Positions 13,689 through 31,444 of a stretch of DNA of 33,225 nt are shown here, one piece after another. The stretch is from Nitrospirota bacterium. Lineage in GTDB: Bacteria; Nitrospirota; Thermodesulfovibrionia; Thermodesulfovibrionales; Magnetobacteriaceae. A model generated the notes under the pieces. It ran no database searches. It saw only the letters and a list, made by a program, of their open reading frames with translations, and had not been told where the DNA came from. Each line of letters starts with the position of its first letter. The first letter of the stretch is position 1. Location of the stretch: contig JADFYL010000014.1 in NCBI GenBank assembly GCA_015233045.1, forward strand, positions 1-33,225, written 5' to 3'. The translations under genes were made by a program, and so were the position numbers.

Positions 13689-13717
13689 TTGACTAAAGTC
13701 TTTCCTTGTGCTATCCT
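13689..13717 (+). promoter_or_regulatory. Candidate promoter giving a leaderless mRNA
   Basis: TTGACT (13689-13694) and TATCCT (13712-13717) are spaced exactly 17 bases apart. The next ATG is at 13724, about where transcription would start. There is no Shine-Dalgarno in front of that ATG. Confidence 0.5.
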
Positions 13718-13723
13718 AAAAGC

Positions 13724-14065
13724 ATGAGCGTGATAGCGATACCAAGAGTATTGAGAGAGAGATTGGGCGAAGACGGCGTTGACGCGCTTCTTACTGTATT
13801 CGGTGATGTAAGCCTTAGTACCCGTACAGATTTAGCTACCAAGTCTGACGTAAAGGATATGGCGACCAAGTCTGACATAAAGGATATGGCGACCAAGTCT
13901 GATTTAAAGGATATGGCTACTGCCCTCCGTCAAGAAATGGCAACCAAAGACGGCGTTAAGGCCGAAATCGAATCCGCCAAGTCAGAACTCTTGAAGTGGT
14001 CATTTATCTTCTGGGTATCGCAGATTGGCATACTGATAGCCGCCCTAAGATTCTTTGTGAAGTAG
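13724..14065 (+). CDS. Small coiled-coil protein with C-terminal membrane helix
   Basis: This is a 113-aa protein from ATG 13724; an in-frame GTG at 13706 would lie inside the predicted promoter. An N-terminal helix (PRVLRERLGEDGVDALLTVF) is followed by a predicted coiled coil with three perfect 9-residue repeats of the form ATKSD(V/I/L)KDM, then charged helix and a C-terminal hydrophobic segment (KWSFIFWVSQIGILIAALRF). This architecture resembles the small DUF1640/CCDC90-like coiled-coil membrane proteins common next to toxin or restriction genes and in intergenic islands. The function is unknown. It is likely tail-anchored in the inner membrane. It is convergent with moeA. Confidence 0.65.
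   Translation: MSVIAIPRVLRERLGEDGVDALLTVFGDVSLSTRTDLATKSDVKDMATKSDIKDMATKSDLKDMATALRQEMATKDGVKAEIESAKSELLKWSFIFWVSQIGILIAALRFFVK
13835..13915 (+). repeat. Three in-frame 27-bp tandem repeats
   Basis: Units start at 13835, 13862 and 13889. Each encodes ATKSD, then V, I or L, then KDM, and they differ at only a few bases. A fourth, degraded unit (ATALRQEM) follows. The repeat length allows expansion or contraction by whole coiled-coil segments without a frameshift. Confidence 0.85.
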
Positions 14066-16223: not shown

Positions 16224-16268
16224 CGTCCTTATATTCTATAACATTCCCGCCTAAAATACTATAACAAT

Positions 16269-16451
16269 CTCACTCTACGACATTTCTAACCAAACTTTCG
16301 CACAGGGAGTAATGGATTTACCGTATAGTCCGTCATTCCGGCTTGTCTGGAATCTGTTTCTACACATTCTCACCAGCCAAATAAGATTTTGGACAAGCCG
16401 GAATGACGACAAGGCAAGCACTGTGGATACAATTTTCCATCGTGGAGTGAG
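16269..16451. mobile_element. MITE-like element, copy 1 (183 bp, 9-bp target duplication)
   Basis: The left end CTCACTCTACGA is the inverted complement of the right end TCGTGGAGTGAG with one mismatch. Exact 9-bp direct repeats TATAACAAT flank it at 16260-16268 and 16452-16460. Inside is a palindrome with 25-bp arms (16331-16355 and 16384-16408, CGTCATTCCGGCTTGTC-type). It has no reading frame of useful size, so it would depend on a transposase elsewhere. It lies between the lone receiver gene and the phospholipase-like gene. Its central loop is inverted relative to the copy at 31227-31410. Confidence 0.88.
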
Positions 16452-16499
16452 TATAACAATAATTTACTCAGGGAGACGCAAAGAGTGAACCGAGCGGCC

Positions 16500-20608: not shown

Positions 20609-20674
20609 CTCACTCCACGACATTTCTAACTGAACTTTTGCACCAAGAATATGGTGAATCTACCTTTACCGTGA
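20609..20674 (+). mobile_element. Truncated left end of the MITE-like repeat
   Basis: CTCACTCCACGACATTTCTA at the start continues with CTGAACTTTTGCACCAAGAA and a near-match to GTGAATTTACC. This corresponds to the first ~65 bases of the elements at 16269 and 31227. The palindromic centre and right end are missing, and no target duplication can be seen. Confidence 0.75.
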
Positions 20675-20687
20675 AAATCCTACGGAG

Positions 20688-20888
20688 CTAGCACAACACT
20701 TTAACAATGCTTCCATAACTCCATTTCACCTCCTTCTCTTGTGGCCAGTTTTTGTTGTTAGGGTAGGAATTGTGGATTACCTTGCTTACACTTTCGTACA
20801 AGCAGGTCTTTTTACCGTGCGTCCTGTTGCCATATATGGCATGGACATGCGGGGGGTCGTGCCACAATCCCCAAGTCAGTTTAGTCAT
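20688..20888 (-). CDS. Possible small protein (66 aa)
   Basis: The frame starts at an ATG with GGAG 8 bases upstream, and a perfect -10 (TATAAT on the minus strand, 20924-20929) lies 36 bases before that, which supports expression. The peptide begins MTKLTWGLWHDPPHVHAIYG and is hydrophilic, with no signal or membrane helix. I recognise no family. It ends 14 bases short of the truncated mobile-repeat end, so its original 3' part may have been lost. Confidence 0.35.
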   Translation of the reverse strand: MTKLTWGLWHDPPHVHAIYGNRTHGKKTCLYESVSKVIHNSYPNNKNWPQEKEVKWSYGSIVKVLC

Positions 20889-20960
20889 CGGGGTTTCTCC
20901 ACCATCGACCGTTTCCCTCCCCTATTATAACTGGTTACCATGAAATGAGGAAATATTGCA

Positions 20961-21143
20961 GAATGACTACGTAATTTTCATGGGCGGGGGCGAATATTAA
21001 CTCTATTCATGAAGGTTTAGTCCGTCATTCCGGCTTGTCCGGAATCTTATTGGGCGTGAGGACGTCGTGGAGAGACAGATTCCGGACGAGCCGGAATGAC
21101 GACAAGACAAACAGGGTGGGGGCAATTTTTGTCGCGGCGTGAG
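20961..21143. mobile_element. Decayed copy of the MITE-like repeat
   Basis: The internal palindrome is intact (arms 21023-21047 and 21077-21101, CGTCATTCCGGCTTGTCC-type). The right end GTCGCGGCGTGAG (21131-21143) matches the element terminus. The left end has drifted and is placed by length only. No 9-bp target duplication is recognisable, so this is probably an older insertion. It ends 24 bases before the likely yajC -10. Confidence 0.6.
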
Positions 21144-25910: not shown

Positions 25911-25944
25911 TGTCCCGGGTAAAACATGGCGAGATTTACGGGGT

Positions 25945-25965
25945 GAGGGGTGGTTACCCCCCTTC
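25945..25965. terminator. Hairpin between recJ and the convergent kinase gene
   Basis: GAGGGGTGG and CCCCCCTTC pair around a TTA loop with one mismatch and one G-T pair. It lies 34 bases after the recJ stop and 12 before the end of the kinase gene on the other strand, so it can serve both. It is a weaker version of the hairpin at 132-152. Confidence 0.5.
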
Positions 25966-25982
25966 GTCTTTAATCCTTTATT
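25952..25982 (+). repeat. 31-bp dispersed repeat, copy B
   Basis: It is identical over 31 bases to 139-169 (GGTTACCCCCCTTCGTCTTT followed by AATCCTTTATT). Here the repeat supplies the TAA stop codon of the minus-strand receiver-kinase gene (25978-25980). Confidence 0.75.
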
Positions 25983-27132
25983 TTTGAAGGTGCCATGTGT
26001 CAATCCTGAACTCGGCGCCGCCCTCTACGTTTGATACTGAGAGCTGCCAGCCCATGTTGGTCTCTATTATTGTCTTAGACATGTAGAGGCCGATGCCTGT
26101 GCCTTTGTCTGGTGGCTTGGTCGTAAAATATGGCTTGAATATCTTATCCATTACGTCTTCCGGGATGCCGCCTCCGGTGTCGCGTATGGTAATTGTGATA
26201 TGGCCGCCGCTGTCTTTGCCAACGGTAATGTCAATCTTATTTTCAGTTCCTTTGTCTTTGCGGCTGAGTATAGCATCTTTTGAATTACTTATAAGATTTA
26301 ATACAACCTGCTTGAATTCGTTTGGGTAGCCGGTTATGGTGAAATCATCCCCTTTGAGCCAGAGCTTGAGACCGATGCCGCTTTTAGCGAAATAGGGGGA
26401 GAACATGGAGATTACCTCTTCGACGGCGTCATTTACACCAAACCGAATCTTTTCTTTTGAGGGACGAAGGAAATTTCTGAAATCGTCGGCTGTCCTCTGC
26501 ATAAATTCTGTCTGATTTGTTATTGTGGCCACTGAGGAATGCAGATATTCCTCGTCAAGCTCATTATGAGTAAAGGCGTCTTCAAGGTCTTGCGCCGTTA
26601 CAGCGATTGCGTTTAACGGCTGCTTCCACTGATGGGTTATCATGCCCAGCATTTCACCCATTGCCGCCATTTTGGACTGTTGTACGAGCATCTGCTCACC
26701 GCTTCGGCGTTTAGCGGTCTCTTCTTCCACCTTTTCTTTTAATGACCTTTGCAGAAAGTACAGATTCAGGTGCGTGCCCACGCGGGAGATTACCTCATCC
26801 TTCTGAAAGGGCTTACAGATATAGTCAACCCCACCGCATTTGAACGCGTTGACCTTTTCGGCCACATCTGTCAGGGCGCTTATAAAAATCACGGGAATAC
26901 CCGCCGTAATGGCGTTGGCCTTCAGACGGCGACAGACCTCGTATCCATCCATATCGGGCATCATTATATCAAGAAGGATTAAATCCGGCATGTGTTTAGC
27001 TGCCATATCGAGGGCCTCCTGCCCACCGTATGCCATCAACACCACAAACCCGGCGGACTGAAGCTGTACCGAGAGCAGCTTTACGTTTATCGGCTGGTCG
27101 TCAACAGCCAGAACGCACCCCTTATTTTCCAT
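25978..27132 (-). CDS. Receiver-histidine kinase (CheY-like domain fused to HisKA-HATPase)
   Basis: This is a 384-aa cytoplasmic protein with no membrane helix. The receiver (about 5-122) has D11-D12, phospho-acceptor D55 ([11 protein letters not shown]) and K107. A short coiled coil leads to the HisKA domain with H167 in [10 protein letters not shown], the H-Q-W-(K/R)-Q-P-L type of H-box. The ATPase has the N box [11 protein letters not shown]1 DTGGGIP, F box FKPYFTTK and G2 [10 protein letters not shown]. It therefore probably receives phosphate at its N-terminus and autophosphorylates under control of it. It is the last gene of a minus-strand two-component operon and overlaps the single receiver gene by 11 bases. 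Its stop codon lies in the 31-bp repeat. Confidence 0.93.
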
Positions 27133-30500: not shown

Positions 30501-31221
30501 GCTCGTCTGCCGCCTGAATTTCGACCAAAGACAAATAATCGCCACCGGTTATTTTCTCCGTATCCCGAATCAGCGCCGCTATCGGCTTCAGCACCCTGCG
30601 CCGCAAATAAATCAGATTAGATATCATCAACAAGACGCCTATCGCCGTGAGAACATATCTGGTCCAGATAAAAATCCCCTCCGCCTTCTCCACACTGTTT
30701 ACCAGATGTGTTACAACCCCATCAATGTCCACCTCGACGAAATCGTGTATCTTCTTTCCCTGTTCCCGCAAAAGACTCGCCCTGTCTTGTGGCGACGCAA
30801 TAAAAATTGACTCAAGTCCGGGCTTAAATTCCTCATCCCAGCGATGGATTATGAATCTGAGCTTTTTATCTGATTCAGGGTCTGAAACTCGTACAAGATC
30901 GTATTTGACGCTGCCGTCTTTAAGGGCGTTGAGGATTTCCTCGAATCTGCCCATTTCCATTTTTACGTGTCCGAGGGCCTCTTCCTTTTGCGGGGATTGT
31001 TCATCGAATGCCTTCTTAACCATATATACTATCTGAAACGCCCTCATCCTCTCTGAACCGGCAAGGTTTATAGCCTTGCTGAAACCATTGACCCTGGACG
31101 AAAACCACATCCCGCTCACAATGAAGGCTATAAAGATAAGAACTATGGAGGCAAAAATCAGGTGAAAAGACCTCCTCATCGGTGTAAACGTGCGCTCAGG
31201 AGTTTTATTAATCTCTCTCAT
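27499..31221 (-). CDS. Giant membrane hybrid histidine kinase with two C-terminal receivers
   Basis: This is a 1240-aa protein. An N-terminal helix (about 19-40) is followed by a periplasmic domain of the PilJ/NarX type (INLAGSERMRAFQIVYMVKK, about 50-70) up to a second helix (about 186-204). HAMP follows (about 206-260). PAS domains lie at about 284-395 and 404-520 (the second with WHGEFSNKKKNGE), then a GAF-like domain (about 537-690). HisKA has H731 (NMSHELRTPLNAI), and the HATPase has NLLSNAVKFTP and GTGLGLAMVKRL. Two receivers have phospho-acceptors D1033 and D1157. All catalytic motifs are present. The ATG lies only 5 bases from the end of the mobile element at 31227-31410 and inside its target duplication, so the present ribosome-binding site (GGGAGTGAG) comes from the element. 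It is translationally coupled to the next gene. Confidence 0.94.
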   Translation of the reverse strand: MREINKTPERTFTPMRRSFHLIFASIVLIFIAFIVSGMWFSSRVNGFSKAINLAGSERMRAFQIVYMVKKAFDEQSPQKEEALGHVKMEMGRFEEILNALKDGSVKYDLVRVSDPESDKKLRFIIHRWDEEFKPGLESIFIASPQDRASLLREQGKKIHDFVEVDIDGVVTHLVNSVEKAEGIFIWTRYVLTAIGVLLMISNLIYLRRRVLKPIAALIRDTEKITGGDYLSLVEIQAADELMVLAERFNIMTGTIGRSFKEMEERVQQRTIELSTTNSRMQSFFDSAADAIVSINPEYNTIILFSKGAEKIFGYRADEVIGTNVNCLMPEPFHSNHDQYVENYLETGVKKVMGRVVRAKAKRKSGEIFDVDISVGESITQTGRVFNAIMRDISERVKTEMEMQKLSNAIEQSSESVVITDRGGAIEYVNPAFERASGYSRAEAIGKNPRMLKSGLQPRSFYKELWDTIIGGSIWHGEFSNKKKNGEIYYEDATITPIKDENATVTHFVAIKNDVTARKIAEAEASKKNAELEARSRYDSVYARAMSIFSTTFDQKQAISDMLALLSESLSYPSLAFYSYDEWAGLLVCDSSYGVSGSLRKEFGLSEGIVGQSIVSGRAIEITGSEHFPLTIETGLISITPQAVIVQPVFHQGMVMGVLVVASVIPLTDLDRGFIERLSINIGISLQSLRQYNDMKELTEQVKLRGDEIARKNTQLEESNRLKSEFLANMSHELRTPLNAIIGFSEILKDGVLGDLGDGQKEYINDIFTSGQHLLSLINDILDLSKIEAGKMTLDLDRLDIPYMLENSLSIIKEKAHAHNIAIKLNVQESVGHMFADARKFKQIVYNLLSNAVKFTPAKGTVTLKADIITVDNRKFLEISVTDTGIGMSEEGMKKLFRPFEQIDGSLSRKYEGTGLGLAMVKRLVELHGGTIGVESEEGKGSKFTFNIPYREEVSDVQQTEISHPAEEGLNSPPEQLLKEIKEPLVLIVEDDMKSAELLCIQLGSEGYRTIRASTAEEGLALAAQEIPDLITLDIMLPDMNGLDFLKHIKESEATKRIPVLIISMLNDKSKGFSLGASNVLQKPVSKDELIEAVRQIGIVPEDLTRQLKVLVVDDDPKAVEIVSLYLQNENCAVFRAYGGQEAIDTARRELPDLMLLDLMMPEVTGFDVVRCLKEAPETASIYIIILTAKVITEEDRKELNHNVLKIVNKGRFDKVDLIAEARRAMRGRGPVQTQTPDVKI

Positions 31222-31414
31222 TTTTTCTCACTCCCTGACAAAAAAGTGTCTCCACACGGCTCGCCTTGCCGTCATTCCGGCTTGTCTGGAATCTGTCTCT
31301 CCACGACATCCTCAAGCCAAATAAGATTCTGGACAAGCCGGAATGACGGACTAAGGGTAAATTCACTATTCCTCGGTGCGAAGGTTCAGTTAGAGATGTC
31401 GTGGGGTGAGTCAT
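31208..31414 (-). other. 68-codon frame from the duplicated start codon through the mobile element
   Basis: It starts at the ATG in the upstream copy of the 9-bp target duplication, preceded by the likely original GAGGA of the kinase. It runs through the whole element and stops at 31208-31210, 14 bases beyond the first base of the kinase ATG, in a different frame. It is probably a by-product of the insertion, but could be translated as a leader and couple to the kinase. It is not a conserved protein. Confidence 0.35.
31227..31410. mobile_element. MITE-like element, copy 2 (184 bp, 9-bp target duplication at a start codon)
   Basis: The ends CTCACTCCCTGAC and GTCGTGGGGTGAG are inverted repeats. 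Exact 9-bp direct repeats TCATTTTTT flank it at 31218-31226 and 31411-31419. The internal palindrome has arms at 31270-31294 and 31324-31348. On the minus strand the target duplication contains ATGA, so the start codon of the hybrid kinase exists twice. In orientation it is reversed relative to the copy at 16269. Confidence 0.9.
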
Positions 31415-31444
31415 TTTTTATAATTCCTCATATTTTGAATTGCC

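Follow-up and report, generated by a model that had tools for sequence, protein, structure and literature searches.

M1 elements and other features of the window

The window, i.e., the whole stretch of 33,225 nucleotides that was analyzed, is one contig of the host MAG (2.6 Mb in 190 contigs, 73.6% complete), and it harbors three copies of a MITE family, here named M1. Copy A (16269..16451, + strand) is 183 bp long, has no coding capacity, and gave an RNA fold with a z of -7.4; the 9-mer TATAACAAT abuts it on the left (16260..16268) and, as read directly in the sequence, on the right (16452..16460), in agreement with the exact 9-bp target duplication claimed in an earlier note on this DNA. Copy B (31227..31410, - strand) lies in the opposite orientation and is likewise flanked by an exact duplication, namely TCATTTTTT (31218..31226 and, again by direct reading, 31411..31419). 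The note had also assigned it the same length and ends as copy A, which did not hold, since it is 184 bp long and its ends, CTCACTCCCTGAC and GTCGTGGGGTGAG, are similar to those of copy A, not identical. The absence of a transposase from the element was borne out, as the open reading frames of copies A and B, elements of only 183-184 bp, include none for a transposase. The 14-bp consensus of the M1 ends is CTCACTCCRCGACA; the short form of these ends is CTCACTCC.

The inner core of copy A is a 78-bp inverted repeat (16331..16408, repeat I11), made of arms at 16331-16355 and 16384-16408 around a 28-nt spacer; as described below, it is a head-to-head dimer of CGTC-type REPs that recurs in other MITE families. 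The core of copy B (31269..31349, repeat I7) has its arms at 31269-31294 and 31324-31349, and its spacer is inverted relative to the element ends when compared with copy A. The third copy, C (20609..21143, + strand), retains both ends and the REP dimer core (21023..21101, repeat I8); one of its arms is split by ~345 bp of foreign sequence (roughly 20669-21013), and no clear target duplication is seen at its borders (CGAGGAAGT / CGATACCCT). This copy, the 78-bp inverted-repeat core and the opposite orientation of copy B had all been missed by the earlier note. The complement of the insert in copy C terminates in ...AGCTCCGTAGGATTTTCACGG. At locus L266, a truncated element of another family, M3, has next to it an end that is much alike, AGCTCCGTATGATTTTCACGGT; judging by these ends, the insert and its L266 counterpart may be a further mobile sequence.

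Copy B was inserted at the start codon of a 1240-aa ORF (31221-27499, hybrid kinase), such that the ATG (CAT on the + strand) is included in the left duplication. The end of the element now places AGGGAG about 10 nt upstream of this ATG, and this end (GGAGTGAG; duplication and end together, 31218-31240), which looks like a Shine-Dalgarno sequence and is similar in the orthologous copy of congener G003, may be regarded as a putative ribosome-binding site. Other repeats were also observed in the window. A 47-bp repeat, found at 128-174 and 25941-25987, contains a terminator-like GGGGGG-TTA-CCCCCC palindrome, and a related copy of it in G003 (L136) is split by a MITE of family M2. In addition, three 27-bp tandem repeats at 13821-13920 code for KSDxKDMAT within a 119-aa ORF (13706-14065).

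Transposition and distribution of M1

When the host genome and its congeners were scanned for paired M1 ends, 15 independent two-ended copies were retrieved. Exact 9-bp duplications flank five of these (TATAACAAT, TCATTTTTT, TCATATCCT, AGGCAATGG, AATCACACT), and near-matching ones flank three more (8/9 in one copy, 7/9 in two). Over the 15 copies, the flanking 9-mers agree at 92 of 135 positions, against a mean of 44 when the right flanks were shuffled, and none of 100,000 such shuffles was as good as the observed pairing. A good duplication is missing in about half of the two-ended copies, as is to be expected if these copies are old or rearranged. The earlier note had proposed a listing of the flanking 9-mers as a check on its reading, and the outcome went in its favor.

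Comparison with relatives, which had been proposed as well, revealed a precise empty site for copy A in congener G001, where contig C98 carries a single TATAACAAT with high identity in both flanks, and where the BLAST alignments of the two flanks share exactly 9 bp (C98:4369-4377). G003 (contig C110), on the other hand, carries the orthologous insertion together with the same duplication, which places the insertion before the split of G003 and the host. An ortholog of copy B was also found in G003 (C29), with a substitution in one of its duplications. This copy is missing in five other congeners (G001, G002, G004, G005 and G006), the locus being locally rearranged, such that the empty junction is approximate only; in G001, for example, a local gap of ~11 bp makes the empty site unclean.

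It may be argued that the element is a static intergenic repeat with a regulatory or structural role, such as a terminator or an mRNA hairpin, and that the duplications arose by chance. The very stable fold and the location of copies at gene borders, with copy B right at a start codon, would suit such a role. Nonetheless, the exact duplications and the presence or absence of the insertion among congeners speak against it, and the empty site refutes it, so that the probability left to this explanation is negligible. Exact 9-bp duplications that differ from copy to copy while the element boundaries stay fixed, together with the empty site in G001 and the orthologous filled site in G003, support transposition, as the earlier note had maintained, and confirm that 16269-16451 and 31227-31410 are MITE copies in opposite orientation.

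In the six genomes with the family, exact matches to the 14-bp end number 67 (G000, 7; G001, 15; G002, 1; G003, 32; G004, 6; G005, 6), whereas a reversed control was not found in the same genomes. Congener G006 has none, and the remaining 169 genomes of the order have only two, both within an apparent DnaJ-like coding sequence. Searches of the order (176 genomes) and the phylum (396 genomes) returned, outside the genus, chance matches only, namely the two DnaJ-like ones and two others without a matching second end. The M1 ends are therefore restricted to one genus, Candidatus Magnetominusculus (Nitrospirota), where they are found in some of its members.

An autonomous IS with M1 ends was found neither in the assembled host and congeners nor in the rest of the order or in the genomes sampled from the phylum; this absence carries little weight, since the MAGs are fragmented and their contigs break inside repeats. 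A check of viral contigs gave none. The IS-sized spans bounded by CTCACTCC ends show no duplication, and a pattern scan of the 396 genomes of the phylum revealed nothing more with M1 ends. A 1546-bp element in L154 was rejected as the partner, as its end (CTCACCTTCGACAG) is only superficially alike, a 9-bp duplication is lacking, and its transposase frame is decayed; an apparent IS in L210 was really a miniature M5-type element beside a chance match. Ends starting with CT or C and 9-bp duplications are typical of the IS10 and IS50 groups of the IS4 family. M1 resembles these groups in both respects, which is an analogy only. The PF01609 loci examined in the host and congeners (IS4, IS5, ISAs1 and IS1634 types) all bear other ends. 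Given such ends and a duplication of constant length (9 bp), we infer that a DDE-type transposase moves M1 in trans, which is more guarded than the view of the earlier note that the element must use the transposase of a related IS that shares its ends.

The REP dimer core and the MITE families that contain it

By inverted-repeat analysis, the core was found to consist of CGTCATTCCGGCTTGTCCGGAATCT, a spacer of ~28 nt, and then the complement. Its REP unit, CGTCATTCCGG-CTTGT-CCGGAATCT, and the complement of this unit form a head-to-head dimer, in which the CGTC tag lies outside an imperfect palindrome. The criteria applied for the REP class were a CGTC tag, a stem of 8-9 bp and a CCA tail (PMC3733652). 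The core is like the CGTC REPs of that study in the outer CGTC of each unit, the AT at the start of the stem, the 5-nt loop, and the conserved head-to-head spacer, whereas its stem is 7 bp and its tail is CT; this makes it a close relative of the CGTC REPs, not a member of the four described families. No dedicated transposase has been reported for the CGTC REPs, and a broad spectrum of transposases was suggested as possible movers (PMC3733652). In Rfam, the hairpin had no match at gathering score, and its matches to microRNAs, which were below threshold, were taken as chance.

The dimer occurs far outside the M1 family and the genus. Isolated cores in the host MAG were considered as free-standing REPs and rejected as such, as their flanks belong to other MITE families. 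At least three such families with unrelated ends, M2, M3 and M4, contain the same dimer. M2 has ends ATTCCATTTCTAAATCAT with TA abutting, and M4 has ends CACGGTAAATTTGTTC and 10-bp duplications, CGTTAATTAT being exact. The ends of M3 are CAGGGCAAACGCAYTA, also given as CAGGGCAAACGCATTA, and its 10-bp TSDs include CTCTATATTC (L256, by eye), CCCGATGCCT/CCTGATGCCT and AGACGCATAC/AGCCGCATAC. M5 has the M3 ends but with CACTA, and shows exact 10-bp duplications in the host (TCTGGTCTCT) and in G004 (ATCCTGTCCC and AGCTATTTAT). Inverted ends plus an 8-10-bp duplication were found at 20 of 70 distinct dimers, compared to 0-3 in twelve re-pairings of the flanks between loci.

The M3 ends are widespread in the order. 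In genome G078, an intact IS of 1212 bp (L287) lies between such ends, with the exact 10-bp duplication AGCGGCGGTG, and its 370-aa product is an ISAs1-family transposase (NF033564, 401 bits). M3, with its REP dimer core, shares both the ends and the duplication length of this IS and is accordingly an ISAs1-derived MITE, whereas M1 differs in its ends and in the length of its duplication (9 bp). In a sister genus, two MITEs of 289 and 168 bp (L298 and L299, respectively) have M3-type ends and exact 10-bp duplications, and are without the REP dimer.

Other sequences were observed within the core itself. An IS with ends CAGACTGTGTCA... is repeatedly inserted in the REP arm (L121, L086, L112, L020, L022, L026, L264, L274) and appears to use this REP as a target; the ORF beside this end in L121 resembles, by eye, an IS1380-family transposase. 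In L027 (G000:C9) and L039 (G000:C98), a sequence like the 3' end of a group II intron lies in the REP core loop of an M1 half-copy.

The arms of the various MITE families are mostly unrelated, and yet the right arm of M1 (M1R), with its terminal CTCACTCC intact, was found within one arm of M2 (M2a) and of M5 (M5a). Hybrid elements were also found, in which an M4 end is combined with an M1 end (L005; 67/79 and 35/44 matches to the reference arms) or with an M3 end (L262; 53/60 and 35/37). By inspection, neither hybrid has a target duplication, as is expected if they were born of recombination at the core and not of transposition as hybrids. Lastly, the orientation of the spacer relative to the M1 ends is one way in 5 and the other way in 7 of 12 two-ended copies, two orthologous pairs included. 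The simplest reading of these sequences is that the loop between the REP arms was inverted, which may have happened through recombination or template switching.

Movement of the elements and origin of the shared core

The explanation that we consider highly probable as a whole is that M1 is a MITE, that a DDE-type transposase with a 9-bp stagger moves it in trans, and that its REP-dimer core is a passenger and a recombination point. The CGTC REPs, without a known transposase of their own, would thus travel here inside MITEs. The repeated palindromic core would be the place where ends of different MITE families are joined, where half-copies of one family become part of another, and where the loop that separates the REPs is inverted. 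That recombination occurs at the core is suggested by the comparison of sequences.

Alternatively, the moving unit could be the REP dimer itself, as in REP/REPIN-type elements, with a RAYT-like tyrosine transposase mobilizing it in single-stranded form and the arms merely carried along. The core is indeed a head-to-head REP dimer, and it is found well beyond the M1 family and the genus. The duplications, however, are at the outer CTCACTCC ends and not at the REP borders, which largely refutes this reading, and IS200/IS605-type transposition leaves no target duplication, which also counts against it. Considering, moreover, that no Y1_Tnp (RAYT, PF01797) gene was found in the host MAG at its completeness of 73.6%, and that the CGTC REPs were described without an associated transposase (PMC3733652), mobilization of the dimer on its own is very improbable. 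The dimer could also be an independent insertion that repeatedly targeted the middle of palindromes or MITEs, in which case the shared core would reflect convergent targeting. This would fit the CGTC-1 dimers of H. neapolitanus and the GTAG-15 dimers of A. variabilis, both of which were described inside palindromic sequences (PMC3733652), as well as the M3-type ends without a dimer in the sister genus. Nonetheless, the REP-adjacent stretches that the families have in common (M1R in M2a and M5a) favor recombination or capture over insertion at a fixed point, and we consider convergent targeting unlikely, if still to be reckoned with. It is to be noted that the same data fit REPs as passengers and REPs as targets, and that each MITE family may have acquired the dimer on its own.

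As a MITE, M1 is of a known kind. Like Chunjie of Geobacter uraniireducens, QMITE2 of Coxiella and Nezha of cyanobacteria (PMC10969869), it is non-coding, shorter than 300 bp and bounded by inverted ends, with target duplications in the younger copies and many truncated copies. It differs from these three in its own ends, in having no known partner IS, and in a REP-dimer center that is common to other MITE families; this shared core, the hybrids and the loop inversion are what set the present elements apart. No paper on MITEs in Nitrospirae was found in the literature that was searched. The CGTC REP dimers of H. neapolitanus also lie inside palindromes, but the palindrome around the REP is here shown, by its target duplications and by an empty site, to be a transposable element, unlike in that account (PMC3733652). 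Miniature elements that form mosaics, as seen here, are also known from the TIMEs (PMC4133298), which, unlike M1, are derived from Tn3, and for which a REP core is not mentioned in the available part of that account.

The study in which the CGTC REPs were defined did not settle by what mechanism they move (PMC3733652). The REP dimer has now been found within MITEs with 9-bp duplications, 10-bp duplications and TA flanks, and for one of these families, M3, a transposase family can be named, ISAs1, which makes the movement of CGTC REPs testable in Nitrospirota. A broader view, to which we would give slightly less than an even chance, is that CGTC-type REPs ride in MITEs that depend on several unrelated families of transposase, with the dimer as a hinge for the exchange and capture of ends, such that each genome would assemble a combinatorial set of mosaic mini-transposons. 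Overall, a hairpin core common to otherwise different mobile elements suggests how such 'orphan' repeats spread.
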